From positions 1-28,406 of IMG/VR virus record IMGVR_UViG_3300028610_000271: a stretch of DNA of 28,406 bases; one strand, given 5' to 3'. The DNA is from a virus. The notes beneath the pieces are model-generated. The model did not search any database, had not been told where the DNA came from, and saw nothing but the letters and a program-made list of their open reading frames with translations. Below are positions 4,171 to 28,406 of this stretch, one piece after another (the first letter of the stretch is position 1; each line of letters starts with the position of its first letter). The position numbers were made by a program, and so were the translations under genes.

Positions 4171-7100
4171 GTGGACGTTCACCGATTGACGGATCTAGCG
4201 TAGTTTGTGGCGTACCTACTATATTATCCAATGGCACATTTGTTATAGCTCGTCCGGTTGAGAGTTCAAAATGCGCCTTCTTATCTTCTTCATCAAGAAG
4301 GTCACTGAAATCAATTTCAATTCCACGGTCTGTCTGCCGTCCAAGTAACAAACCTAAAACCATATCCTGTGGATCACTTGTATCTGAAAGAACACGAGTA
4401 ATATCCCTTGCAGCTTGCTGACCGGGAAAAGCCATTCTTCCGATCTCCCTCGCCACACGTTGAACAGCACCAACTTTCTGATTAAACGGCTTGTCAACTA
4501 TATCTCTTATACCTTCCGCAACATCTACAGGAGGTCCACCAGAGTAGTTTATAATCGCAGTTGGCGACACCCAACTCCATAGATTATATCCAAGTGTTGA
4601 CCCTGTAATTCCAATCGCCGCACTTGTGATAGATGTTCGTGCAATAAACACTCTTTTCTGCGCAGCAGTCATGTTCATAAACCTAAAGGTATAAAACTCC
4701 TTCGCCCACAACGGCCAGCTTGAGAACATTCCCGCAAGCTTACCCGCAGTAGTTTGTAAATAAAGCGGCTGTGTAGCCAAGCCATATTGAAATTGATTCT
4801 CGTCCGTTACCATCCTACCTGCAAACTGTAACGCACTCTCCTCTGAAACCTTGAACTGCTTGAAAAATGCTTCCTTCAATTGAGGCGTAAATCCAATCAT
4901 TGCATTATCCATAAACTCTTGTTCAGTAATCTTGCCTGCTTTAAAGGCAGCAATCTCATCTGCTACATTAAGCCTCGTGTTAAAATAATCCCTAACTCTA
5001 TTTATATCATCCGTCGATGAGAATGGAACAAGCACCTTCCGTGCAAATCCCGCAGATATATGAGCGCCCTTCATCTGCAATCTAACCATCGGAGCTATCA
5101 AACGTCCAAAAGCATTAGTTGCCTCAACTGCCTGTTCACCGGGAGTAAAGTACCGCTTAAACAATACATCTCCACCGGCAACTCCACCTTCACGCAAACC
5201 TAAAACTCCATCTGCAAATGTTTTATCATACCCTGCGCGTGTACCTGCAATTCTAATCGCCTCACCAAGATGCTTACCACCATAACGCACATAAGTCATG
5301 AAGTTAATCTGAGTCGTTGCATTTCTCGCAACTGCCTTACCCGAACCAACCAACGCACCGAAGCTTGAACTAAGCATATCGTTAAACATCTGCTTCAATG
5401 CAGGCTCTGTCACATCCACGCCCATCATTCGATACATACCCATAAAGATCTTCGTAAGCGCACTAGCCTGCCGTGCTTGTCCACCTTGAAGATTCATCAG
5501 CATTGTATTATAAACATCTGTAATCTGTTGCGGCAATACAGGACCGTTTATATCAAACGGGATTCCTGTCTCCTCAAATAACTTCTTCAACCCTGCTTGT
5601 TGACCTTGGGGTAAATCTCCCATCTTCATTGGAGTAATTCTTGTTCGACCAAATCCAGTCAATGTTGCCATTTTATCAAAAGCTTTACTGACAAATTTCT
5701 CTTGTGCTTCTGACCTAAACCATGAGAGTTGAACGAGTAATGGATCCATTTCAATCGGGTCCATGTTCCCTCTACGAATATGCCTAAAGAATGCTTCCGC
5801 AGCAGGTGGAACAGGCTCATTTCCATAAAGCGCAACCCTCGTTGCATCCGAACCCGCTTGAACCTTTGGCTGAATTCTACCGAAATATTGCAAAACAAAC
5901 TGATCTGGTGGTATTCCTGCTCTGATCCCACCTACATTGAAAATATCCATAGCGCGATTCATTACAGCAATTTCTTTGGCATCCAAACCAGCACGACTTG
6001 CTCTTATGTTAAGTGTTTTTCTCGTAATATCCTTTCCTTCAATAGACCTCCAGAACATTGCAACTTTAAGCCTTCGCATCTGTCCAGTCTTACCTCTACC
6101 TAACTGCATCAAATTTTTCTCAATATTTGGAAAGTCAAGCGAGGTTGAGTTACGCATTTCTCTAGTACCCTTCAATACATCATCAACGTAACCTGTAAAT
6201 AATGGAAAACCTGAGTCGCGCTCAAATTTCTTCGCTAAATCAGCAAGGTTGTTAGTTAACTTTGCATCACCAAGTTCAGCAAGTTGAGCTTGCGCCACAG
6301 ATTCATTACTTATCGCAACCGTACTTGGTACTTCTCCTGTAGGCATCAAATTAGGCGAATGTGGTGGTGCAATAACAGCAAAATCAGCCGGTAACATAGT
6401 AGACTCAACTAAGTCTCTCCGTGTTCTTGCAACTCTCAACGCATTCCTAACACCCTTCTCGTTTGTAAAGAAAAACTCCGCGCCTGTGGTTGCATCAGTC
6501 AACGTAGCCGTACCACCTACACCACGTTGAAACTTAAACCCTTGTGACGTAGCCATAAATTCCAAATCAGTCCTACCTTGATTCAGAATATCAGCATACT
6601 GTTTGCGAAGATTTGTAATCAACGTCTTTTCTGTCTCAGGTAGAGATTCAAAAAGCTCCCTACGCATACGCTGTGCAGCAAATTCCTTAAATATCTGTGC
6701 ATCCGCACCAGCGATACCTTGCTCACGCATCCACACAGCAACCATTTCATCGAAACCACCTAACGTCTGAGGTGGAACAACAAAGAAATCATTCGCACCC
6801 CTAGCTACGTTAGATTGAATAGTTTCAAACACCGGGTTACGAATACCTAACATTTCAATATGTTGAACATCAGGTATAATCTCTGCAATTCTTTCTGCCA
6901 ACACCTTTGCAGTTCTACGCGGTACACCCTCCAAACTAGCTCCATCCAAACCTGTAACCAACAACCCGCGTTCCGTCTGTCTAATCTCAAGCATAGCATT
7001 AACAGGCTGATCTCCACGCAAGATCTGCAAGAAAGCCTTACCTTCTGCTTGTTGTGGGGACAACTGCAATTCCGCAGGTGACACAGGTTTAACATTCAAC

Positions 7101-8695
7101 CTAACACCTGGTTGTTTACCTACATCAAACACAATTTTCTGTGACGCATCCATCCCGGCTTCAAATGGGGAGATAATCACATCCCCAACAGTCTCGCGAA
7201 GTCTTACTTCATCCAACGTAAACTTACCTTTTAACACATCATCAATAAGTTGGTCTTTTGAAACTCCATGAGCAGCATTTCTAGCTACATTATCCAAACG
7301 TGAATTAAACCATTCACTAAATTCTTTATACAATCCATCATTTCCAGGAACAATTTCCAAGCTTCTTCCCGAACCATGTATCGACAAGTTTTCAATCATA
7401 ACATCTCTCGGCTTACCACCATCGAGAGGTCTTACTTTAATAAATCCCGGTCTTGTACTCAAACCAGCAACTTCCCTCTCAACTCCACCATGCGAAACAC
7501 GCATACCTTCAAACATTCCAGTCTTTTTGAGCATAGCTCTTTGTGGATTATTCAATCCTCGTTTACCAAAGCTTATAACTGCATTAAACCCTTCCGCACC
7601 TTTCACTATATCCACACCCATACCAGGAAATAACTCAGCCATTCTAGTCTTAAACGCAAACTGATCTCCGATACGTTGAATAAGAACATGACCTGTACGA
7701 TCACTAGCTACATCCCGCAAGCCTGCTACAACCGCATCTATATCCGCATTCTTAACAAGAATCTCTCGTGCGGCTACAGACTGTGCAATTATCTCCTCAT
7801 CCTTCATTACATCAAACACAATAGCTTCTTGACCATCTTTAATTGCAGCCTTCCCCGCAGCAATTTCCACATTCGCTTCGGCTACTTTTTCTGGACTAAA
7901 TCTTTCCCGTGTCAACCCTCTCTTACTTCTAAATCCAGCTACCCAAGGAAATGCAGCACCAAGCAAAGCAAAGCCACCAAACAAACTACCCTCAACAATT
8001 GCGTGCTTACCTCGTTCCTCAAGATCTCCTTGGGTATTAAACAACCCAAGTACATTACCAGCGACAAAATCTCTTGTAATATTTGAACCAAGCCGTGTAT
8101 GCAACCCTGTCAAACCTGTAGCAACTTTCAAACTTGCGGAAAGTGGAGCTAAAAATCCAACTAAACCACCACCAACTCTAATCTTTGCGACAGTTCTTTC
8201 ATCAAAGCCCACACGAAGTGCAATATCTTCTGCTTGCGTAATCAATCCACCTAACGTACTACGGAGTTCATCAGTTTGCTGACGAATATCAGCTTCAATT
8301 TCATCCAAGCCTACAACATCTGCAATCTCTGCAAGAAATTCAATCAAATTAGCCGTCGGCTGTACGAAACCTTGATTTATTCCTTCAAGCAAAAACAATC
8401 CTTCTTGTGATACAAGCCTAGCTTGTGATCTTACATCCCCACGAAAGGCACCTTTAACATCACGACTGAAACCACCGCCAGCAAAGCGATCAATACCCGA
8501 AGCTATGGCACTACCTACTTCACCGGCAATTCTACCAACAGATTCAAAAACTCCCGGTCCTCTATCGTCTGGAATCACACCCGCAATTCCCGGTACGAAA
8601 TCATCAGACGCTAGGGTTTCGTTAATAATACGCCTAATACGTTCTTGTCTTTCTAGTGGATCTTCTTGTGGAATTTTATCTTCCGGTGTGCTCAT
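4154..8695 (-). CDS. large internal virion/ejection-type protein, 1513 aa
   Basis: This is the largest gene of the window and the last of the late arm. I infer an internal virion or DNA-ejection role from size, position after the tail nozzle, and composition, by analogy with T7-like gp15/gp16 and the large polyvalent proteins of podoviruses. The N-terminus is charged and helical. Two Gly/Ala/hydrophobic stretches (about residues 170-215 and 235-260) could interact with membranes. Near the C-terminus a WPLWAKEFY motif is followed by a hydrophobic segment, which resembles some large polyvalent-protein domains, but I cannot confirm the family. No lytic transglycosylase or protease motif is obvious. 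ATG at 8695 lies 7 nt after the preceding stop, behind GAGTAG. The reading frame is intact. Confidence 0.7.
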   Translation of the reverse strand: MSTPEDKIPQEDPLERQERIRRIINETLASDDFVPGIAGVIPDDRGPGVFESVGRIAGEVGSAIASGIDRFAGGGFSRDVKGAFRGDVRSQARLVSQEGLFLLEGINQGFVQPTANLIEFLAEIADVVGLDEIEADIRQQTDELRSTLGGLITQAEDIALRVGFDERTVAKIRVGGGLVGFLAPLSASLKVATGLTGLHTRLGSNITRDFVAGNVLGLFNTQGDLEERGKHAIVEGSLFGGFALLGAAFPWVAGFRSKRGLTRERFSPEKVAEANVEIAAGKAAIKDGQEAIVFDVMKDEEIIAQSVAAREILVKNADIDAVVAGLRDVASDRTGHVLIQRIGDQFAFKTRMAELFPGMGVDIVKGAEGFNAVISFGKRGLNNPQRAMLKKTGMFEGMRVSHGGVEREVAGLSTRPGFIKVRPLDGGKPRDVMIENLSIHGSGRSLEIVPGNDGLYKEFSEWFNSRLDNVARNAAHGVSKDQLIDDVLKGKFTLDEVRLRETVGDVIISPFEAGMDASQKIVFDVGKQPGVRLNVKPVSPAELQLSPQQAEGKAFLQILRGDQPVNAMLEIRQTERGLLVTGLDGASLEGVPRRTAKVLAERIAEIIPDVQHIEMLGIRNPVFETIQSNVARGANDFFVVPPQTLGGFDEMVAVWMREQGIAGADAQIFKEFAAQRMRRELFESLPETEKTLITNLRKQYADILNQGRTDLEFMATSQGFKFQRGVGGTATLTDATTGAEFFFTNEKGVRNALRVARTRRDLVESTMLPADFAVIAPPHSPNLMPTGEVPSTVAISNESVAQAQLAELGDAKLTNNLADLAKKFERDSGFPLFTGYVDDVLKGTREMRNSTSLDFPNIEKNLMQLGRGKTGQMRRLKVAMFWRSIEGKDITRKTLNIRASRAGLDAKEIAVMNRAMDIFNVGGIRAGIPPDQFVLQYFGRIQPKVQAGSDATRVALYGNEPVPPAAEAFFRHIRRGNMDPIEMDPLLVQLSWFRSEAQEKFVSKAFDKMATLTGFGRTRITPMKMGDLPQGQQAGLKKLFEETGIPFDINGPVLPQQITDVYNTMLMNLQGGQARQASALTKIFMGMYRMMGVDVTEPALKQMFNDMLSSSFGALVGSGKAVARNATTQINFMTYVRYGGKHLGEAIRIAGTRAGYDKTFADGVLGLREGGVAGGDVLFKRYFTPGEQAVEATNAFGRLIAPMVRLQMKGAHISAGFARKVLVPFSSTDDINRVRDYFNTRLNVADEIAAFKAGKITEQEFMDNAMIGFTPQLKEAFFKQFKVSEESALQFAGRMVTDENQFQYGLATQPLYLQTTAGKLAGMFSSWPLWAKEFYTFRFMNMTAAQKRVFIARTSITSAAIGITGSTLGYNLWSWVSPTAIINYSGGPPVDVAEGIRDIVDKPFNQKVGAVQRVAREIGRMAFPGQQAARDITRVLSDTSDPQDMVLGLLLGRQTDRGIEIDFSDLLDEEDKKAHFELSTGRAITNVPLDNIVGTPQTTLDPSIGERPLTSQP

Positions 8696-8702
8696 TATCT
8701 AC

Positions 8703-10007
8703 TCATTCGTTGGTTGTACCAAATAAAGTAAGCTCAGTTGTATCTTTTGCAGCTTTTGCTGCCCTTGCAGTATTCACAATTGATTCATCAAGCTCAAAGG
8801 AAAGGAAATCTTCCTCAGTTAATCTGCCAGATACAAATGCACTCACCACAGCATCAATCTGATTTGGCTGCAATTCTGCGGGGTTAAACGAGCTAAATTG
8901 TGGATCGCCAAGTGATATAAAACCAAGTATTCTTTCAGTCTCAACTGTAGGCATGATACGACCAAAACCATTTGCTCTTGAAAGATTATCAGCTTGACGA
9001 TAAAGAACTTCTAACTGCTCTTCAAATTCTTGACTGTCAATAATCTGTTTGTCGAACAAATCTCGTAGTTGATCCAGTTGTAAATTCGTTGCAGCTCCAC
9101 GTGGACCCATTTGATTAAGCAATAACCTAGCATTTCCTAACTGTCCAACAGATGCTTCTGCTGCAATTCTAATTGCTGGAAGTAGTTGTGGACTACTTGC
9201 CGCTAACTCACCTAACGTACCGTTTAACTTTGCCTGTGCAATACGTCTTGCGTCAATAGGATCAATCGCCAAGCCACCTTCGGCAAGTGTTAACGCAACA
9301 CCAGAAGCCACAGCACGAAAATCAGTTTGATCGAATATATCTTTAGTTTGACGAATTTGCATAAACCGCGCGTTCATATTCCCCGCAGATTCGGTTATGT
9401 CAACAACCGATCCATCAGGAAGCTGAACAGTTAAAAGCTCATCAAAACCAAATGCTCTCCTACCTGTATTCTCACGTATTAATGCAGACTGAGTAGACAA
9501 ATCTGGATTATTCAACGCCGCAGCATATGCCTGAGTAAAGACTGCCGATGTTCTGTCAACTTCTTGACCAGCTACAACACCTTCTAACGTAGTAGTGCCT
9601 TCACCTACTTTCTTGGCAACTGATGCTTCTCCAAATGCAAGTTGAGCTTCTGGACTAAGTGTTCCTATAAATGCAGCTTCCAACGCTTTTACAGGATCTA
9701 GCTGTCCAGAACTCCTAGTAGGAATTGTTGCATCTTTAAAAGACTCTAAACCTTCATCACTAAGCAAAAAGCTTACAGGTTCAAATAAAAATGCGTGATC
9801 CCCTACCTTCGTGCCCGGCTCAGGAAATTGACTCAACAAACGTAACGCACCTAATGCAATTTGCTGTTCGTCATTTATCCTTCTCTGATCCAAACCTTGT
9901 TCTTGCAAATCCAACTGACGTTTGCGTAGGAAGAAAGACATTATTGTATTCGTAGAAGCAGCTAACGCATCTCCCAAAGCCGCACCTGTCGTCTGTCCAT
10001 TAGCCAT
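8703..10007 (-). CDS. probable internal virion protein, 434 aa
   Basis: No specific family is recognised. The N-terminal about 60 residues are Ala/Gly-rich and then strongly helical and charged (FFLRKRQLDLQEQ onward). The rest is predominantly helical with many Ala, Leu, Gln and Glu and no membrane segment. A middle-sized helical protein between a 231-aa and a 1513-aa protein, downstream of the tail nozzle, is the arrangement expected for podoviral internal or ejection proteins (compare T7 gp14-15-16). The start ATG at 10007 follows an AAAGGTG ribosome-binding site, 11 nt after the upstream stop. The function is inferred from context only. Confidence 0.65.
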   Translation of the reverse strand: MANGQTTGAALGDALAASTNTIMSFFLRKRQLDLQEQGLDQRRINDEQQIALGALRLLSQFPEPGTKVGDHAFLFEPVSFLLSDEGLESFKDATIPTRSSGQLDPVKALEAAFIGTLSPEAQLAFGEASVAKKVGEGTTTLEGVVAGQEVDRTSAVFTQAYAAALNNPDLSTQSALIRENTGRRAFGFDELLTVQLPDGSVVDITESAGNMNARFMQIRQTKDIFDQTDFRAVASGVALTLAEGGLAIDPIDARRIAQAKLNGTLGELAASSPQLLPAIRIAAEASVGQLGNARLLLNQMGPRGAATNLQLDQLRDLFDKQIIDSQEFEEQLEVLYRQADNLSRANGFGRIMPTVETERILGFISLGDPQFSSFNPAELQPNQIDAVVSAFVSGRLTEEDFLSFELDESIVNTARAAKAAKDTTELTLFGTTNE

Positions 10008-10018
10008 CGTAACACCTT

Positions 10019-10711
10019 TTATTTAAGAATTGCAGCTCCACCTAAAGTAGCACCTGCCTGTAACAATCCCGGCAAGAACCCTGGATCTTCTTGACTAGCA
10101 CCCGGCTGTAAGAAAGCAAGAATAGTCCTTAACAACTCCTGCTGACTACCCGCACCAATCTGTGCCGACTGATTGATCCCCGGAATAATCTCACCTAAAG
10201 CTGCAATTCTACGTTCTTCCGCACTCTCAAAACTGGTGCGAGCAATCTCCTGCCTACGTCTTGCAAATTGATCTGCAAGCGCACCGCGAGTAAAGCCCTC
10301 AGCATTACTTAACTCTCGTGAGAACCTACCACCCGCAGAGCCGAATTGATTCCGAACGCCGCTAATTGTCAGATCTCTCTCACGATCTTCAAACGGTTGC
10401 AACGCTGCAAACCCTGCACTTAAATCAAACCTTGGTGCATTCAACGCAGTCTGTGCAGCCGACCCAATACCTAACGAACTTGGATCGAAACCTAAAATTC
10501 CCTCCGTTGCACCTTGTTGTAGTCGCCCTGTCGCTTCGGCAATACGTCCAATTAGATCTTCAAACGAAATTGGCGTAGATACAGTCCGATTAAGCCCAAA
10601 CGATCCACGCTCCGTAGTTGTGTCTGCAAACAAATCCTTAAACGTATCACCCGCCGCTGCTGTTGCTCCACGGGTTTCCAGCGGGGTTCCACTCTTTGTT
10701 CCACCGGCCAT
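10019..10711 (-). CDS. probable internal/tail-associated virion protein, about 230 aa
   Basis: The protein is Gly/Ala/Ser-rich at the N-terminus, with a conspicuous middle part of RNQFGSAGGRFS followed by a long Arg/Glu/Ala-rich helix, and it ends in a short hydrophobic glycine-rich tail (LLQAGATLGGAAIL). Such GRFS-plus-helix proteins are frequent near ejection-protein genes of podoviruses, but I cannot give a named family. Two adjacent ATGs exist at 10714 and 10711. The AGGAGG at 10718-10723 leaves 3 nt to the first and 6 nt to the second, so I chose the second. The gene begins inside the end of the acetyltransferase gene (about 65 nt overlap). It is the first of three presumed ejection genes. 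Confidence 0.65.
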   Translation of the reverse strand: MAGGTKSGTPLETRGATAAAGDTFKDLFADTTTERGSFGLNRTVSTPISFEDLIGRIAEATGRLQQGATEGILGFDPSSLGIGSAAQTALNAPRFDLSAGFAALQPFEDRERDLTISGVRNQFGSAGGRFSRELSNAEGFTRGALADQFARRRQEIARTSFESAEERRIAALGEIIPGINQSAQIGAGSQQELLRTILAFLQPGASQEDPGFLPGLLQAGATLGGAAILK

Positions 10712-14698: not shown

Positions 14699-14940
14699 GA
14701 CCGTCTCTCTTTTCCATTCCAAAGACCGGGAACATTGCCTAGTTTAGTCTCGATAACTGCGAGTCTTTCAGACATTTTTCCGCGTTGACTAGAGCCTGTC
14801 TTATTGTCTGCTTTCAACTCTTGTATATCTTGCTTCATACCATTCATACCAATACGAACTCCAATCCACGCCGCACTTGTCGGCCCTCCAACTATTGCAA
14901 GTAATGCAGCTATTACAAGCCAAGCTGGAAAATCACCCAT
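14695..14940 (-). CDS. single-pass membrane protein of lysis cassette, 81 aa
   Basis: An N-terminal hydrophobic helix (WLVIAALLAIVGGPTSAAWIGV) is followed by a charged, probably coiled-coil segment (MKQDIQELKADNK, ERLAVIETKL) and a basic tail. This is the shape of one-helix phage membrane proteins annotated as holins, antiholins or hemolysin-XhlA-like. ATG at 14940 overlaps the fibre gene's stop as TGATG, so I prefer it to a TTG at 14961. Its stop overlaps the endolysin ATG. With the two-helix gene at 14124-14381, the cassette has two holin candidates flanking the peptidase; one may act as antiholin. Confidence 0.65.
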   Translation of the reverse strand: MGDFPAWLVIAALLAIVGGPTSAAWIGVRIGMNGMKQDIQELKADNKTGSSQRGKMSERLAVIETKLGNVPGLWNGKERRS

Positions 14941-16760
14941 CACACACCACGCCGTTTCCAAAGATTTGATTTAACCATTCGTGTAAATCCTTTCTCGACA
15001 AAGTTATAACTCTCTTGAACTATCAAAACTAAATTCTCTCCGAAAGCATGAAGATTAGTTTCAGTTATGTTCAAAGCTTCGCTAACAAGTTCTACAAGAG
15101 CAGCACCCTCACCGACTACAAGCTTGACAATTCCTTCAACAACATTCACAACCTCTGAAACCAAGCGAACTAACACCTGTGTTGGTAAGGTAGCTTCCAC
15201 GAAATTAAGCGTATTGGCCTTAAATCTAACCATCACTCGTACAGGTAGTGACACTTCGACAAAATTTACAGCCTCATCTAAAATACGTAACAACACTAAA
15301 ACTGGTAATTTATCCTCAACAAAATTAACAATCTCCGCGATGTTCTTAGCAAGTAACTCTGTTTTATTCTTATCCTCTACGAAGTTAACAATCTCGTCAA
15401 CAGCCTTCGCTATACCGAGAACATTTATTGCACCCTCAACGAGATTTAAAACCTCATCAATAATCTGAGCTATTAAATTCGTATGGTTTATATCCTCAAC
15501 AAGGTTAAGTATCTCCGCTGGTAGACGGAACAATGCTAATGGTCTAAGCGGTGCTGGTTCGTTAAAGTTTACAACCTCCGCAGGTAAGCGGAATAAAGCT
15601 AACGGACGTACCTTGTCCTCGACAAAATTTAATACATTGTCGATAATCTGCTTAATCCCGATTGTATGAATCTCGTCCGCAACGAAGTTTACTACATTTG
15701 AAATATCTTTCGCAATCAACTTTGTTTTAAGCGTATCCTCGACAAGATTTTCAACCTCATCTATGATTCTAAGTAGAATTGCTGATTCAAACGCTCCTTC
15801 GTTGAAATTCGTAATCTCACCAAAAATTTTAACAAGTGCTTCACCGGCTGCAAATGAATATACATCCCCGCCAACGATTCTCTTTCCACCCGTAACAGGT
15901 TGGAAAACTTGGACGATATTATCAGAGGCATCGGTGACTACGATTCGTACTATAGCGGACAAATTCACATCAAGTACATCAAGTGTTGCTGTTCCGCTTA
16001 CTTCTGTTGCCGACTTTATAATTGCGCTGGTAATATCTAAGATTTTTAGTTTGAATCCAGTCGTTAATCCCGAACAGAGTATGTTTCGATCTGCTGTATC
16101 CCACCATTCTTTCCAGTTCGCCCAATCGGTTCCGCAACAACCACCGATCCCCGCATGACCAGCAGTAAGAGTTGATGGTGTAGCGTTTAAAGTTTCTGCT
16201 TCAGCAAAATCATAACCTGTCGCTTGACCAGCCCCGTCTACGAAAGTAGACAACCTATAGTCAGTATCAACAGCTTTATACGGGAGACTTCCGGTTGTTT
16301 GCGCTCCAACAGTATTATCATCACGCTCAGTAAAGGCAAAACCATAACCCGAACCATCGTCCGTGACTACAACATTAGCACCAAGAGAATCGTCACCGCC
16401 AACCCCCGTTTCCATATGAGCAATCAAAGATGGATAGTCCATCGGAAAGCCAGCGGGCGGCGAACTCGGTGAGTAAAATACTCCTTGCAACATTCGTTTA
16501 GCACGGCTAGTCGCACCTGTACCACTGTGCCGCATATAACCGATACCACCAGTTTCGACTTCTAACTCTCCTGTCGTTCCGTCTACTTGAACCGTAGTTA
16601 GGTTAAACTGCTTCTCCCAATCACCGGCATTGAACGGGACGGTAAGATGATTAGCGATATAATAAGCAAGTAACCCCTCGCTAGTTCTTTCAAGAACAGC
16701 CCCAATTCCTGCACGCGGAACAATGGGCCGATATTGAAAACTACGCCCATGTCGGGGCAT
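14940..16760 (-). CDS. tail fibre-like protein: lectin-like domain plus 14 tandem 20-aa repeats
   Basis: The 606-aa protein has three parts. Residues 1-25 are an Arg/Pro-rich N-terminus starting MPRHG. Residues about 25-300 look like a concanavalin/LamG-type beta sandwich followed by a small beta module; the segment GHAGIGGCCGTDWANW, then a GLTTGFKLKILD strand, is typical of the end of such lectin modules. Residues 308-594 are about fourteen degenerate repeats with consensus I-x-x-E-V-V-N-F-V-E-D, then a short basic tail. I infer a receptor-binding or surface-binding fibre with a repeat stalk or adhesive arm. It starts in a TAATG junction with the preceding gene and is followed by the lysis genes. 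No catalytic residues are recognised. Confidence 0.7.
   Translation of the reverse strand: MPRHGRSFQYRPIVPRAGIGAVLERTSEGLLAYYIANHLTVPFNAGDWEKQFNLTTVQVDGTTGELEVETGGIGYMRHSGTGATSRAKRMLQGVFYSPSSPPAGFPMDYPSLIAHMETGVGGDDSLGANVVVTDDGSGYGFAFTERDDNTVGAQTTGSLPYKAVDTDYRLSTFVDGAGQATGYDFAEAETLNATPSTLTAGHAGIGGCCGTDWANWKEWWDTADRNILCSGLTTGFKLKILDITSAIIKSATEVSGTATLDVLDVNLSAIVRIVVTDASDNIVQVFQPVTGGKRIVGGDVYSFAAGEALVKIFGEITNFNEGAFESAILLRIIDEVENLVEDTLKTKLIAKDISNVVNFVADEIHTIGIKQIIDNVLNFVEDKVRPLALFRLPAEVVNFNEPAPLRPLALFRLPAEILNLVEDINHTNLIAQIIDEVLNLVEGAINVLGIAKAVDEIVNFVEDKNKTELLAKNIAEIVNFVEDKLPVLVLLRILDEAVNFVEVSLPVRVMVRFKANTLNFVEATLPTQVLVRLVSEVVNVVEGIVKLVVGEGAALVELVSEALNITETNLHAFGENLVLIVQESYNFVEKGFTRMVKSNLWKRRGV
14979..15839 (-). 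repeat. 14 degenerate tandem repeats of about 60 nt (20 codons)
   Basis: The repeats encode residues 308-594 of the fibre-like protein. Typical units read KNIAEIVNFVEDKLPVLVLL and RILDEAVNFVEVSLPVRVMV, with the E-x-V-N-F-V-E core strongest. The DNA is also repetitive (a complement of CCTC-ACGAAATTAACAATCTC recurs), and two adjacent units near 15508-15545 and 15574-15611 encode LALFRLPAE twice, suggesting recent duplication. Average unit length is 20.5 residues. Related units occur in the gene at 25234-25947. Confidence 0.85.
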
Positions 16761-22352: not shown

Positions 22353-24192
22353 CGAGATCCTCCGATGCAGGTAGTATTCGTTCAAGAACCCGTAGACCCG
22401 CAACAATGTCGTCCGGGTTTGTAACATCAAACCGATCCAAAATTTGCTGCATGAACTTCTCAGACGATTTAACAAACTCAACCGCCACAGGCGCAAGAGC
22501 TTCCGGCGGAACACCAACTCGTTCGATAAAGTCGATAATCTGCGTGTACATCGTGAGAGATAGGTTGAATATCTGAATAGCATTTTGTCTCTGCAATTCT
22601 TTGTTTTGCTGACTTGTAGGACTCGCAGCACGGAATCCTAGGCCATTCTCTATTGCGGAAAGTGGAAGGTTAAAGATTCCAACCATTATCCTTCCGCGAT
22701 CTCCTAGCCATTGAACAACTGTACTTTCCTCTACACCGAATTGGAAATAGAGAGAGAAAACCATGTCACCTACTTCTGACAGGCCATTGCGGATTGATCT
22801 AACTGTTTGATCGAAACGCTTGGCTTGTTCTTGGAGTAAGGCTATTTGTGCTGTCGCGGTTGTTCGTGATACTGGTTGACCTCCACGAGAGTTTGCATCA
22901 TTCACACCGCTTAGACGTTCAATAACATCGCGAGTAAGATTTTCGTTGACTATTGTTGAAGGTGAAACTGTACCGAGTTGAAGCGGGGTTACGTCTTGAA
23001 AATGATCTACAGGGATTATTTGCCCTGAGAATAACGGATCGCCGGGCTTCAAGCTTTTTGATGTTCGCGTTACAAGCAACGGGCGTGTGTTGATTATCGT
23101 TGTATTGTCAATACGTTGGTTATGCATTTCGGAAATTTCATCCTGTAATGCTTCCAACATTTCACACAAGCCGTGGTCGTAAAATCTATGTTCTACCGGG
23201 AAGAAGGAGAACTTAACAAAAGGACGCTTCATATGCCAGAATTGATTGTAATTAATCCTAAGCATAGTCCCGGTGCGTAGATGGTAATGAACGATAAGTT
23301 CTTCCATTTCCCCATCACCATCTGCATCGAACGCAAGATAGATTTCGTAAATTTCAAAGGTATCTCTTTCACGAGGTTCCGCACTTTGCAGTTCTTCATG
23401 AAGTTCTTGAACTTCGTTATTCTGGTCATTGTCCGTTTCGTTAAGCGGAGAGTCTATGTCGATCAACTTCTCCACATCGGATTTTTTGTAATACCCTCGT
23501 TTTACATCGTGCATTAACTGGCGTTTGTTGCGTCGAAAACGCTTTCCACACCAACGAGCATCTTGAATATTAGTGGATGTAAAGGGGATTATGAAATCCT
23601 CAAGTGGGATATGAAAGACAACAGGGCCAGTGTTTTTGATGTTCTTGACCTTAGTTGGCTTTATACCATCGCGGTTGTAGAGGTAATGTGTTCGTATATC
23701 TTCTCTATAACCAACCTGTAAGATGGATGTACCATACTTGGTTCCTTCAAGAATCCAACCCTCTGCAAGTGGGCCTATTTTGATCTCACGTTTCGCGGCT
23801 ATGTCCATAAACCGTTCAATCGTAGGAACGAAAGGTGCCCATTCGTCCGCGATAGCTTCCATGTTCCATTGCGGAGTAGGAGTTAAGGTAGTTTGAGTTA
23901 GCTGTGCAACCATTGTATTTACGATTTCTTTAATCACAGGAATCGTAAGGTTCGATGCATTGCGAACAGGAAAATCCTTCGGCTCAGTTGCAGGTGGAGC
24001 GTTGTAAGCAAACTGCCAGCGTTTGAGATTATTTACAAACTGACCACGCTCACCAAGAGCGAGTTCGATCTGCTGTTGGAGAAACCAACCTAGCTCCCTA
24101 CGCGATTCACGAGAAAGTGAGACTTCTCCCACAATGGAAGTCTCCTGCTTTCTTATCTTTGCAAATTCGCTAAATTCTACAACCCTAGCCAC
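22210..24192 (-). CDS. portal protein, 660 aa
   Basis: Portal features are clear: an early helical region followed by FPVRNASNLTIPVIKEIV; an alpha/beta region with a SFFPVEHRFYDHGLCEML segment and then the long helix with EISEMHNQRIDNTT at about residues 350-363; a VSPSTIVNENLTRDVIERLSGV segment; and a RTTATAQIALLQEQ helix typical of podoviral and Mu-like portals. The protein forms the dodecameric DNA channel at one capsid vertex and receives terminase and adaptor. The start is GTG at 24192 behind CGGAG, 2 nt after the previous stop. The final 143 nt also encode the start of the nested 122-aa gene. Length is at the larger end for portals. Confidence 0.88.
   Translation of the reverse strand: MARVVEFSEFAKIRKQETSIVGEVSLSRESRRELGWFLQQQIELALGERGQFVNNLKRWQFAYNAPPATEPKDFPVRNASNLTIPVIKEIVNTMVAQLTQTTLTPTPQWNMEAIADEWAPFVPTIERFMDIAAKREIKIGPLAEGWILEGTKYGTSILQVGYREDIRTHYLYNRDGIKPTKVKNIKNTGPVVFHIPLEDFIIPFTSTNIQDARWCGKRFRRNKRQLMHDVKRGYYKKSDVEKLIDIDSPLNETDNDQNNEVQELHEELQSAEPRERDTFEIYEIYLAFDADGDGEMEELIVHYHLRTGTMLRINYNQFWHMKRPFVKFSFFPVEHRFYDHGLCEMLEALQDEISEMHNQRIDNTTIINTRPLLVTRTSKSLKPGDPLFSGQIIPVDHFQDVTPLQLGTVSPSTIVNENLTRDVIERLSGVNDANSRGGQPVSRTTATAQIALLQEQAKRFDQTVRSIRNGLSEVGDMVFSLYFQFGVEESTVVQWLGDRGRIMVGIFNLPLSAIENGLGFRAASPTSQQNKELQRQNAIQIFNLSLTMYTQIIDFIERVGVPPEALAPVAVEFVKSSEKFMQQILDRFDVTNPDDIVAGLRVLERILPASEDLGGSQDFEKAADRAKEADNLARLEALLSPPGTDETGLVNVGGEDSINP
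22359..22363 (-). promoter_or_regulatory. ribosome-binding site deciding the GTG start at 22352
   Basis: GGAGG on the minus strand lies 6 nt before GTG, inside the coding region of the portal. It is the main reason to begin the nested gene there and not at the upstream end of the long open frame. Confidence 0.6.
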
Positions 24193-24194
24193 GA

Positions 24195-24758
24195 TTAGAC
24201 TCCGAGTGCTTCGTGGTTGACGAATACCTTGAGCGTATCATCGGCAGTTTTACCAAATCCCGCTGCGAAAGCATAGACGGTCAAACAAACTTCTGACGCG
24301 CCTGGAGTTGGATTAGTGATAATCCCGTGAGTGATTGAAGCTGCATTGAAATCAGCTTTGGCGTAGGATGCTAGATGAGAAACAATATCCACACCCGCAC
24401 CTGTGTTATCCGCGTCACCATCATTCGTTTTCGGATAACCAGCAGTTTCTAGCTTCTGCGTTGAACCGATAACTGTTACGTTAGAACGATTCGCAGTCTT
24501 ACCGGGCGTTCCGGCTGAAGCTAGTTCATGCGTAGTAAAGGTTTGAGTTGTGGCTTCCGCAGCCATTTCCTGCGCGTAGAAAAGATCTCCGTCATTCGTG
24601 ACAATGTTATGTCCAAGATGAAGAAACTTTCCACGAGGCGTACCTAGAACAGCCATGATGTTCATGTGCTTCGGTACAATAAGATCTCGGGTCCAAATTC
24701 CATGCGCGCTCTTGTAGACGCGATCTTGGAATCCATAAACCCTTTCTCTGAGCAACAT
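24195..24758 (-). CDS. virion-type beta protein upstream of portal, 187 aa
   Basis: The family is not recognised. The N-terminus (RVYGFQDRVYKSAHGIW) is followed by a GHNIVTNDGDLFYAQEMA segment, a form I associate with beta-rich phage structural proteins of unknown role. A Thr/Ala/Gly-rich middle and a C-terminal strand (CLTVYAFAAGFG) follow. There are no membrane helices. ATG at 24758 has AGGAG 8 nt upstream. The stop lies just before the portal GTG. A head or surface protein is the best guess. Confidence 0.65.
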   Translation of the reverse strand: MLLRERVYGFQDRVYKSAHGIWTRDLIVPKHMNIMAVLGTPRGKFLHLGHNIVTNDGDLFYAQEMAAEATTQTFTTHELASAGTPGKTANRSNVTVIGSTQKLETAGYPKTNDGDADNTGAGVDIVSHLASYAKADFNAASITHGIITNPTPGASEVCLTVYAFAAGFGKTADDTLKVFVNHEALGV

Positions 24759-24761
24759 AAG

Positions 24762-24920
24762 TTAATCTCCTACCACTGAAATTACACTTTCTTTGAGCCG
24801 TTCTCTGGAATTCTGCCCATCTTTAGGCTTATTAGTAACAGCTTTCCAAACAGCGACAACGATCAGAATAACAAAAGGTGTTGCAAACCCTGCAAAGTAA
24901 ATTCCCAATTCTTTAATCAT
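24762..24920 (-). CDS. small single-pass membrane protein, 52 aa
   Basis: ATG at 24920 opens 52 codons ending TAA at 24762-24764. The protein has a clear transmembrane helix (FATPFVILIVVAVW at about residues 12-25) and a charged cytoplasmic-type tail. Its ATG overlaps the previous TGA as ATGA, which strongly supports it in this operon. It fills the 160-nt space between the Ig-like and 187-aa genes. Its role is unknown; a third small membrane peptide in the late arm besides the lysis cassette and the 56-aa gene. Confidence 0.65.
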   Translation of the reverse strand: MIKELGIYFAGFATPFVILIVVAVWKAVTNKPKDGQNSRERLKESVISVVGD

Positions 24921-25237
24921 GGTTGACGATCCGTTATTACGAGTTCATGATTTTCGACCAGTTTTTTCCCCACGCCAGCATCAACAATTATCTCTGCGCG
25001 GTAAACCGAGCCGATTGCGAATACAGCATCATCGCTAAGTACGCCGATGTAATCTCCTTCCGAGTTAGGGATATAGTTAAGAACAATAGGCCAAGCAATT
25101 CCAGCTACTACCACATCTGCATCGTCGTAGATTGTAACTGAAATCGTAGCAGCATTTTCAAACTTATCATTTATAATATCAAATAGATTATCAACTCGTA
25201 AGATATTATCCGATCCAGTTAATACAACTCTCATCAT
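24917..25237 (-). CDS. Ig-like beta-sandwich virion protein, 106 aa
   Basis: The pattern of alternating strands (NAATISVTIYDDADVVVAG, WPIVLNYI, GDYIGVLSDDAVFAIGSVYRAEI, ENHELVITDR) is that of small Ig-like or carbohydrate-binding-like modules common in phage head and fibre proteins. The N-terminus SDNILRVDNLFDI is typical of such proteins. The start is ATG 25237 in an ATGA overlap with the repeat-protein gene, and a second ATG follows at 25234. It probably decorates the particle or accompanies the repeat protein. Confidence 0.65.
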   Translation of the reverse strand: MMRVVLTGSDNILRVDNLFDIINDKFENAATISVTIYDDADVVVAGIAWPIVLNYIPNSEGDYIGVLSDDAVFAIGSVYRAEIIVDAGVGKKLVENHELVITDRQP

Positions 25238-25947
25238 TGTTCCATATCCCTGTTGATCCAGAAGGTCATTCTCATCGCCGTGATGGAAACAAACTTCATG
25301 ATAACCTGACCGATTACGAATGCGAGTCCTATTACTTGGTCTAGTAATGTCAATGATTCAGATACAACTCTGACTTTACCTAATGCTAAGATTGTTGATT
25401 CTGTTGAGTTGACTATTTCCGACACAGTTTGAGCTATCTCTAATCCAATGTCTTTTACGGCACTGGCAGATGTAGTTACGAAGTTTACAACCTCGTCAAT
25501 TACCTTAGAGAATAGCTTGTTCGGATCTGCCGTCTCAGAAATCTGGAAACGGTTTACAAACTGGCGAACTAAAACCCTCACAGGAGTTTGAGTGGATACG
25601 AAGCTGAATACCTCCGCAACTGCGCGGACAATCGCCTCACCGATCTCTACGCCGATTACATGATCTTCTGAGAATACGAGATTGATAACTTCGTCGATTA
25701 CCTTGACGAGAAATTCTTCTGCGATACTAAGCAAATGATTTACCGACTCGACGTAGTTTAATACCTCACTCTCGATGAATAACCACGCAACTGATGGATC
25801 TTCGGTTTCTGACAAGCGTAATGTACTATTTATAATCTGAATTATCGCATCAGCGAGGATTTGAAATTTATTGACAACCTCGTTATTGTTTAACGATTCA
25901 TCAATGATTCTATTCCGCTGTAATGCAACTACGAGAATATCAGGCAT
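25234..25947 (-). CDS. repeat protein related to fibre repeats, 237 aa
   Basis: Almost the whole protein is built from degenerate units of about 20-25 residues containing E-V-V/L-N-F/Y-V-E-like cores: IESEVLNYVESVNH, KVIDEVINLV, KVIDEVVNFVTTSASA, IAQTVSEIVNSTES. These match the array in the 606-aa fibre (14979-15839). Two segments are nearly shared: the KVIDEVVNFV core, and TPVRVLVR compared with LPVRVMVR. There is no N-terminal domain of its own. It begins in TAATG with the beta-helix gene, whose last residues form one more unit, so the pair may have arisen from one split protein. Its role is probably a stalk or adhesion arm. Confidence 0.65.
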   Translation of the reverse strand: MPDILVVALQRNRIIDESLNNNEVVNKFQILADAIIQIINSTLRLSETEDPSVAWLFIESEVLNYVESVNHLLSIAEEFLVKVIDEVINLVFSEDHVIGVEIGEAIVRAVAEVFSFVSTQTPVRVLVRQFVNRFQISETADPNKLFSKVIDEVVNFVTTSASAVKDIGLEIAQTVSEIVNSTESTILALGKVRVVSESLTLLDQVIGLAFVIGQVIMKFVSITAMRMTFWINRDMEQ

Positions 25948-25985
25948 TAGAAGTTCACGCTTTCATCGAGAACTTTTACAATATC
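25267..25985 (-). repeat. second array of about 20-codon repeats crossing a gene boundary
   Basis: Units run from the last 12 codons of the beta-helix gene (IVKVLDESVNF) through the repeat-protein gene. The D-E-S core of the last unit before the stop (Asp codon at 25967) lies 65 nt from the next D-E-S core (Asp codon at 25902), about one unit length but one frame off. The repeats are degenerate and vary in spacing more than in the array at 14979-15839. Confidence 0.6.
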
Positions 25986-26999
25986 TCCTCCTGTGATTGA
26001 TAATTCATGCGCGCCTATATCCCACGGTACATCACGGGCGTTGTCAAGAATATCAACCCCGAAGTTGGCACTTAAATCAGCGGCAGCCTCGTAGCCAGAA
26101 TCGCTGGAGGAATTTATTCGATAATCTCTATTGATAAATACAGCATTGGTATCATCTACATAATCAATCACCGGGCTGTCGGCGGAATCGAGCGAGTTCG
26201 TACCCCAGTTCACATCACTGTTCGCTTCTCTATCTGTGAGGTTAAAATCACTAGCCGCGTCCATTACATCGGGAAGGCTTGCGTCGGATATATCGAAGCG
26301 TATATTCGTAGCGCGACAATTCTTGTGAGTTAGCGTAGTTCCGGCGTCTGCTATGAAGTTTAGTGTTGTCCATTCGTCGAAGGTACAATTGTCGAAGAAT
26401 AGAGTGGGTCCGCCCGAACCTGCCGGTACATCAATGGCAGGACTAAATACGTTCTCTTTATCACCGCCATACGCTATCCAGTTACGCCAACGACAGGTAA
26501 CAGCGGCATCTATCTTAAATCCACGCCAAGCAGTACCGGAATTGTGGTCTACGATCATAATACCGCCACCATCGAAACGATTCCAACCACCACTTGCCGA
26601 ACTTACTTTGAATACGGCTGCTGTACTTGTTCCCGTACCCAAGTTGTCCCTCATTTGGAACGTGCCTTCAGTGTGCCAGAGATGATCTACTTGATTGTTT
26701 TCAAATACATTACTAAGGGCCGAAAGTCGATAGCCTAATGTAGACCAGACGGCGGTATAGAATGGATCACCCCCGCTGTCGAGGAAACGTAACTCGACGT
26801 AATTTGTTGGGCTAGTTTTCCAGGCTGTATCATCTATAACACACTTTACGGTATCCTCAAATGGATAACAGTCAATTCGTAGGATTTCATCCGAACCTGT
26901 GGCGGCTGTTATATCAGCGGCTTCACCACCGAACGCGGCATCAAGTCCTGCATAATCTCCGCCAGATGCTTTAACTGTTACTGTTCTGAGTGTAGCCAT
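25947..26999 (-). CDS. parallel beta-helix protein with one terminal repeat unit, 350 aa
   Basis: The N-terminus RTVTVKASGGDYAGLDAAF and the succession of short strands with Asn/Asp/Gly turns (WNRFDGGGIMIVDHN, TLFFDNCTF, TTLTHKNCRATNIRFD) are those of a right-handed parallel beta-helix of the pectate-lyase/tailspike type, and DIGAHE near residue 333 is the usual closing motif of such proteins. Polysaccharide binding or cleavage is possible, but no catalytic triad is recognised. The last residues DIVKVLDESVNF form a unit of the repeat family found in the next gene. ATG at 26999 overlaps the upstream TAA (TAATG). It probably belongs to a tail-spike or surface structure. Confidence 0.65.
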   Translation of the reverse strand: MATLRTVTVKASGGDYAGLDAAFGGEAADITAATGSDEILRIDCYPFEDTVKCVIDDTAWKTSPTNYVELRFLDSGGDPFYTAVWSTLGYRLSALSNVFENNQVDHLWHTEGTFQMRDNLGTGTSTAAVFKVSSASGGWNRFDGGGIMIVDHNSGTAWRGFKIDAAVTCRWRNWIAYGGDKENVFSPAIDVPAGSGGPTLFFDNCTFDEWTTLNFIADAGTTLTHKNCRATNIRFDISDASLPDVMDAASDFNLTDREANSDVNWGTNSLDSADSPVIDYVDDTNAVFINRDYRINSSSDSGYEAAADLSANFGVDILDNARDVPWDIGAHELSITGGDIVKVLDESVNF

Positions 27000-28406
27000 T
27001 ATGGATTCACTCGATTAGAGCTAGTTGAAACATACCAATCGTCGATTAGGATGTATTGCTCTTGTGGTACAGGTAAATTCTGTCCTCCGCCCCACGTTGG
27101 ATTCCAACGAGCGGTACTGAATGCTCTATCGTTATCTGCCGAGTCGAAGTAGTATACTGTATCTACTGATGCGATTTTTTGTTCGATTCCATCGAAGTAA
27201 ACACGATATTTACCATCTTTAACACCCGGACCAGAGTTAGCTACAAAAAGCCATTCTGCTCTAAACCATCTTCCGATTGGAATATTAGCAAGTGGCAAAC
27301 CGGGGTAGCGAACATTTGAACTAACTAAACCATCAGGAGGTCCATCGTTGAATTGTAAAAACATTCCAAAGTATACAGAGCTATCTTTGGATAAATAGAC
27401 AAAGTGATTATTGCTTTGATTTTGTGATACCCAAAAACCTTTAGTTGTAGTAGGATGCCAAGTAAATGCAGGGTCTATATACATCCACACAGACCAATAC
27501 ATTGAAGCACGTTGTGGTTGTCCTGCCCATGAACGATTGTATTCGTATGAAAACGGAGCAGACCCTACACCGAAGTTTAACGGCCAACGGCCTACAGCAA
27601 CGGTATCAGAACCGCTTGGAGGTAGAGGAAAGCCTATATCTCTTGGATCACCCGCGAAGAAGTTTAATGGATTTGTAGATCCTGCACGTCTCCAGCCGAA
27701 AGGATCTTGAGTTAGATGGTCTATGAAACTAAAGTTATTCGGCCCTGCTTGATCTGTGAAGTTTGTGTTGAATGCATACATCTCCGTCATGCCAAGAGGC
27801 TCATTTGGATAAGGTAGAGGATCGTTTAATTCTTCGCCAATCCAACCTGGCCCACCATTACCCGTATCTGTCCAGATTTTAAACGCATCTAAACGAAACT
27901 GAGCATCGTGATTCGTCCAATGATTTCGATTCAAGCCAACTTGCATACGTTGCCAGCCGAGGGGTTCGTGCCAGATATCAAGTTCATCGCTTGGAACGTA
28001 TGTAAATGTACTTCCTGTGTTGTTAAGTAATACTCTACTTCCATTTCGATCTATGGTAAAACGCCCTATTCCATCAAGTACGCCTTGAGCCGAGGAACGT
28101 TTTTGATAGATACGAAACGTATGCCATTCATTATCCCAATCAGGATTGGAACTTCCCATTGATCCACTACCCATGAGAGTATCACCAGCAGTAGGAGAGG
28201 GATGATTTGTCCAGTGTTGAGATCCTTCGTGACCATCTTTTACTGCAATATATGCATTTGGGAAATCAAACCTAGAATGCATTCGTAGGAGTTTGTGGTC
28301 TGGTGCGCTTGAACAACTCCAAGCAGGATCGGGTAGAGTTCCCCACGGTGCGGTAGATGGAGCGGCGTCGAATTTCACACGAAACTCAACCCAAACTTCC
28401 GTAGCT
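26999..28406 (-). CDS. partial protein with two concanavalin-like (LamG/lyase-type) domains
   Basis: The frame stays open to the window edge. The GTG at 28378 is not a necessary start: codons upstream continue ATEVWVEFR, matching the strand order of the domain, so the gene is cut by the boundary. Two jelly-roll domains are seen. The first includes VEFRVKFDAA, a DNEWHTFRIYQ strand and a FRLDAFKIWTD end. The second includes YWSVWMYIDPAF, an IGRWFRAEWLF strand, KYRVYFDGIEQ and the closing EQYILIDDWYVST. This W-x-RAE...DDWY layout is common to LamG-like lectins and polysaccharide-lyase-like domains. It is probably a glycan-binding fibre or spike component. Its TAA overlaps the next gene's ATG. 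Confidence 0.7.
   Translation of the reverse strand, partial: ATEVWVEFRVKFDAAPSTAPWGTLPDPAWSCSSAPDHKLLRMHSRFDFPNAYIAVKDGHEGSQHWTNHPSPTAGDTLMGSGSMGSSNPDWDNEWHTFRIYQKRSSAQGVLDGIGRFTIDRNGSRVLLNNTGSTFTYVPSDELDIWHEPLGWQRMQVGLNRNHWTNHDAQFRLDAFKIWTDTGNGGPGWIGEELNDPLPYPNEPLGMTEMYAFNTNFTDQAGPNNFSFIDHLTQDPFGWRRAGSTNPLNFFAGDPRDIGFPLPPSGSDTVAVGRWPLNFGVGSAPFSYEYNRSWAGQPQRASMYWSVWMYIDPAFTWHPTTTKGFWVSQNQSNNHFVYLSKDSSVYFGMFLQFNDGPPDGLVSSNVRYPGLPLANIPIGRWFRAEWLFVANSGPGVKDGKYRVYFDGIEQKIASVDTVYYFDSADNDRAFSTARWNPTWGGGQNLPVPQEQYILIDDWYVSTSSNRVNP

Follow-up and report, generated by a model that had tools for sequence, protein, structure and literature searches.

Results

Gene organization at the junction

The window, meaning the whole stretch of DNA analysed here, comprises 28,406 nt of an uncultured phage contig (IMGVR_UViG_3300028610_000271, positions 1 to 28,406). 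Its minus strand carries a run of structural-type genes that includes the two genes of interest, gene 1 and gene 2.

25947 to 26999, minus strand: gene 1, an ORF of 350 aa with a beta-helix-like adhesin domain and one terminal repeat-unit strand
25950 to 25982, minus strand: terminal repeat unit of gene 1, IVKVLDESVNF, positions 0-10 of a 20-residue unit
25945 to 25949, minus strand: TAATG, a stop/start overlap of 1 nt (TAAATG at the homologous place in locus L008)
25234 to 25947, minus strand: gene 2, encoding a 237-aa repeat-array protein with 5 units by profile
24917 to 25237, minus strand: gene for a 106-aa neighbour, in ATGA overlap with gene 2
24195 to 24758, minus strand: gene for a conserved 187-aa neighbour, the synteny anchor (72% to locus L065; for L008 see below)
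14940 to 16760, minus strand: gene for a 606-aa protein, a single-ORF counterpart in the same genome with N-domain, linker AAGEALVKIFGEITNF and array
15039 to 15836, minus strand: array within the 606-aa protein, with 12 scored units and a period of ~20 aa

Gene 1 is recognized by its full-length alignment to a fused protein in locus L130 and by relatives in L059 and L002 that lack repeats, and gene 2 by an end-to-end ortholog in L008. The 106-aa neighbour is conserved in L008 and, weakly, in L065. Gene 1 ends in PWDIGAHELSITGGDIVKVLDESVNF, closing with IVKVLDESVNF at the stop codon, and this end resembles the linker of the 606-aa protein. Gene 2 begins MPDILVVALQRNRIIDES.

The label beta-helix, given to gene 1 in a sequence-only reading of this DNA, has indirect support only. 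Gene 1 itself has no Pfam match of note, and its structure model has a pLDDT of 37.9. It aligns with the L002 and L059 proteins, which are of the right-handed beta-helix type ending PWDIGA[HD]E[YL]..GG, and the L002 relative (27% identical) scores 25.1 bits against PF13229 Beta_helix, where the curated cut-off is 25.9. Proteins with this motif end in short unrelated tails, whereas gene 1 ends in a repeat unit.

Within TAATG, the stop of gene 1 and the start of gene 2 share one base (A), and because of this one-base overlap gene 2 lies in the -1 frame. The DE codon pairs at 25967 (gene 1) and 25902 (gene 2) are 65 nt apart; the units of gene 2 do begin one unit-length on in the -1 frame, as the sequence-only reading had it. 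Overlaps of 1 nt occur in 8 of the 26 same-strand neighbouring gene pairs of the window, and overlaps of 4 nt in 3 of the 26, by a gene list and start choices that we picked from the ORF list. The same reading saw no slippery heptamer, and we agree: none of the 13 heptamers in gene 1 phase, from 25990 down to the stop, has the form X-XXY-YYZ.

Locus L001 is a near copy of the window (99.92% over 6,561 nt). The junction is the same in both, and five differing positions lie elsewhere. L001 lacks two bases at window positions 24050-24051, which leaves its portal ORF in two; the portal of the window is intact.

The end of gene 1 is a repeat unit

The repeat family, as defined in this analysis, is a 20-residue phage repeat array of the E[TS]VN[IL].E type, with tandem units of ~20 residues. 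A DNA pattern of two units spaced 20 residues apart hit 47 viral stretches, and a minority of these hold the genuine family. Many of the 47 were judged by eye to be chance matches or members of an unrelated QARDQQ... protein family. Eleven of the matched loci, none of them the window, L001 or L008, supplied the 79 distinct units for the repeat profile. Judged by tandem profile-matching units, gene 2 (with 5) and the 606-aa protein (with 12) belong to the family.

Against this profile from other phages, the C-terminal 11-mer of gene 1 scores 18.1 bits, a value reached by 0 of 1,005,750 shuffled 11-mers. The best other 11-mer in the window scores 12.4 bits (6,504 11-mers from 21 proteins, gene 2 and the 606-aa protein excluded). 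We also ranked 1,876 distinct C-termini from ORFs of at least 100 aa in the fetched loci. Gene 1 came first (18.1), the gene upstream of the split in L008 second (10.5), and the third scored 0.9; the L008 tail score was reached by 11 of 349,760 shuffled 11-mers. Gene 1 ends in a genuine unit of the 20-residue repeat family, and the unit that the sequence-only reading had noticed at its stop is real.

The tails of the window and L008 genes are identical at 6 of 11 residues. When the gene 2 alignment is scanned in gapless windows of 11 residues, 27 of 187 reach this figure, so the better stretches of gene 2 match the tail in conservation. The array of the 606-aa protein was modelled (pLDDT 51.8) as all-beta, each unit contributing about one strand; this predicted strand covers the part of the unit kept by gene 1, in a model that is too weak for a fold claim.

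Fused and repeat-only relatives

With the 187-aa neighbour as an anchor, 75 viral loci were collected. Directly upstream of the 187-type gene, a single fused ORF is present in seven of them (L065, L067, L080, L083, L093, L111 and L130), with 223-456 aa before the first unit. The N-domains vary from one fused gene to another, and the one in L065 hits a PHROG family of minor tail proteins (E 1.8e-7). In L130, the first part of a 576-aa ORF aligns with gene 1 residues 1-350 (27% identity, pairwise E 9e-17), and the ORF continues unbroken into 11 repeat units. The search of related phages for a fused version, as proposed in the sequence-only reading, thus found one that matches gene 1. The 606-aa protein, to which a likeness was drawn there, and six further syntenic loci also have domain plus array in one ORF. 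The longest fused array found, with 39 scored units, is in a 1270-aa protein of L067 (L067:1860-5669) and follows an N-domain of ~456 aa.

Two other loci (L010 and L041) have a repeat-only gene at the 187-type position and an upstream gene without a unit; a separate array gene can therefore have an origin other than this split. The split form occurs in two lineages, one made up of the window and its near copy L001, the other of L008. Nine other 187-type loci have the repeat gene on the downstream side of the 187-type gene and were excluded from the count (L070, L084, L100, L101, L103, L118, L119, L120 and L122; some are near copies). These were read from coordinates, L100 and L101 through L042 and L039.

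In a tree of the 187-aa protein (72 rows), one supported clade unites the window with fused L065 and split L008, and the other fused forms fall outside it. Fused first and split later is the simpler reading of these loci. The tree gives no branching order within that clade of three, so two separate splits or a re-fusion could also have occurred.

Neither gene 1, gene 2, the 606-aa protein nor the 187-aa protein had a tblastn match in 50,697 phage records, where the portal had 9 distant matches. For genes 1 and 2, Pfam and PHROGs offered no informative match, and a PDB profile search with the repeat arrays returned 0 matches. A first DNA pattern for fused genes hit 0 stretches. A wider one hit 8, namely L001 and seven others, with a repeat fusion in 0 of the 7; it missed L130, whose first unit reads ETAQ. 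Genome contigs searched with the 187-aa protein yielded 18 stretches and 0 relatives, and with the repeat pattern 30 stretches, none with at least 3 profile units.

A distant relative is cut at the same place

L008 and the window share a gene order that includes TerL (48%), the 106-type gene (45-46% identity), the 187-type gene (63-65%) and portal (48%). The upstream gene of the L008 pair encodes 410 aa, ends in GEGIVKVQNETVRC at its stop, and is unrelated to gene 1; among the fetched loci no relative of its domain turned up, nor did PHROGs give a match. At the junction, TAA is followed in frame by the ATG of a 257-aa gene. Gene 2 aligns with this ortholog from end to end, residues 1-237 with 1-257 (30% identity, E 3e-20), and the two share the start MP[DE]...AL..NRI.DE and the end IN.D.EQ. 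The upstream genes of both phages stop at the same position of the unit, with the 11th residue as the last.

The corresponding unit spacing across the L008 junction is 66 nt. Stop and start overlap in the window (TAATG) and abut in L008 (TAAATG), and this difference of one base alters the relative frame and neither protein. Because the L008 junction is in frame, no frameshift could rejoin the parts there. Together with the absence of an in-phase slippery heptamer in the window, this means that the two phages have no mechanism of frameshifting or read-through in common. L008, a single contig, is the only diverged split relative among our loci. Since it has the same cut at ~30% identity, a fresh mutation or an assembly error in the window cannot account for the split. 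On the comparison of these genomes, the split is probably an old, stable two-gene design common to the window and its distant relative.

Two other features of this region were seen. Between TerL and the split gene, L008 has two adjacent, similar genes of ~650 aa (reverse complement, 6258-10117), which from their appearance may encode polysaccharide lyases; at the corresponding place a single 687-aa gene, unmatched in PHROGs, is found in the lineage of L001 and the window. A small gene (L001:3450-3863; L008, reverse complement, about 6081-6264), located upstream of the window end at 28406, has in both phages the head MPAVL...TG..Y.HR.GI and a lone repeat unit, NGIVKVVNEGQN in L001 and GGLIVKVIDEEVN in L008. 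Single units therefore also exist outside arrays.

Discussion

We consider it likely that a modular phage surface protein is present here in a two-gene form, genes 1 and 2, which was split in a common ancestor and is linked by coupled translation. The protein is probably a tail fibre or an adhesin, as its structural-gene neighbours and the minor tail match of the L065 N-domain suggest. In the usual form, one polypeptide would carry a variable receptor-binding or enzyme-like domain followed by the 20-residue repeat array. In the ancestor of the window phage and L008, the gene would have been divided within the first repeat unit, just past its predicted strand segment. With a stop followed at once by an ATG, the upstream domain would have kept one terminal unit and the array would have gained its own start. 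We infer that one ancestral split is shared by both phages.

Ribosomes would reach gene 2 by termination-reinitiation at TAATG (TAAATG in L008), and both proteins would be made together in a fixed ratio. Two products that arise in this way and work in the same fibre are the most likely outcome. We also infer that gene 1 docks on the gene 2 array through its terminal unit, its tail strand packing with the array, because the array model has about one strand per unit; the pair would still work as one fibre. That parts of gene 2 are as well conserved as the tail speaks against such docking. The sequence-only reading had likewise proposed an original fused protein that was later cut. The undivided equivalent in L130 speaks for that part of the proposal, but the frame change finds no support as the cause of the cut. 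Its suggestion that occasional frameshifting could give two products is not supported either, since the cut in L008 is an in-frame TAA and then ATG.

Split fibre genes are mostly read as damage, and one case is the side tail fibre gene of phage lambda. It is read as two ORFs, ORF401 and ORF314, in PaPa lambda as opposed to Ur-lambda, and is whole in relatives (PMC9659904). A similar case is a minor tail deletion in Gordonia phages (PMC4929510). On this model, a fused fibre would have been broken by a recent inactivating frameshift and gene 2 would be a relic. Fused relatives do exist, and the intact single ORF found in relatives of lambda has its equivalent here in the L130 fusion. However, the lambda event is a frameshift loss in a laboratory line, and both published cases are private mutations. 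Genes 1 and 2 are split as in a remote relative, with their parts intact: gene 2 is open over 237 aa, has its own start and a conserved C-terminus, and has kept both termini at ~30% identity. We rejected a private frameshift of the lambda type, given the cut shared with L008 and the in-frame stop there, and hold a recent break to be quite improbable. Still less credit is due to a sequencing or assembly error that hides one fused gene. The indel that breaks the L001 portal ORF shows that such contig differences occur, yet the junction is identical in the window and L001, and L008 reaches the same cut by a stop with no indel. Programmed recoding, in which both a short and a fused product would be made, fares hardly better than such an error. 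The unit spacing is nearly kept across the junction in both phages, as recoding would have it, but no heptamer lies in phase, and L008 would need stop read-through where the window would need -1 shifting, with no signal common to the two.

More weight than any of these, though still a small share, goes to the idea that gene 2 is an independent repeat gene, never joined to gene 1, and that gene 1 gained its terminal unit by recombination within unit-coding DNA. Repeat-only genes adjoin the 187-type gene in L010 and L041, the lone units of the small gene in L001 and L008 show that units can sit in another gene, and the upstream domains of the window and L008 are unrelated. Such recombination is harder to square with two upstream genes that end inside a unit at the identical residue, with a next half-unit that opens gene 2 at unit spacing, and with seven loci fused at the 187-type position. 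The persistence of the same within-unit cut over deep divergence, with the front domain replaced, points to a working two-part fibre.

An ancestral split with coupled translation has partial parallels in other systems. The pair may work like dual receptor-binding systems, such as that of Klebsiella phage KP32, where a short conserved peptide attaches RBP2 to RBP1 and so one surface protein to another (PMC13082707). The KP32 peptide is N-terminal on RBP2, whereas gene 1 would attach by a C-terminal copy of the repeat unit of its partner. Short overlaps permit termination-reinitiation and are over-represented in genes that encode the subunits of complexes (PMC10666635). The 1-nt stop/start overlap of genes 1 and 2 is of this kind, but it falls within a single repeat unit of the protein that relatives encode. 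In the literature open to this analysis, searches on split, repeat or coupled tail-fibre genes listed nothing on this repeat family.

It is tempting to go further and regard the pair as a plug-in fibre, in which exchangeable domains end in a single repeat strand that completes the first unit of a separately encoded shaft. We offer this tentatively and think it somewhat doubtful. The terminal strand of gene 1 would complete the first unit of the gene 2 shaft. A split within the unit would permit the head to be swapped (the beta-helix in the window, the 410-aa domain in L008) over the same shaft gene, and translation through the overlap would set the ratio of head to shaft. Were the terminal unit such a plug, uncultured phages would have a simple natural rule for exchanging heads. 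Annotators should bear in mind that adjacent repeat genes can differ in frame through a mere one-base stop/start overlap. Finally, in L118 (L118:6641-8359) three repeat units lie between two non-repeat domains, so the array can also serve as a connector inside a protein.
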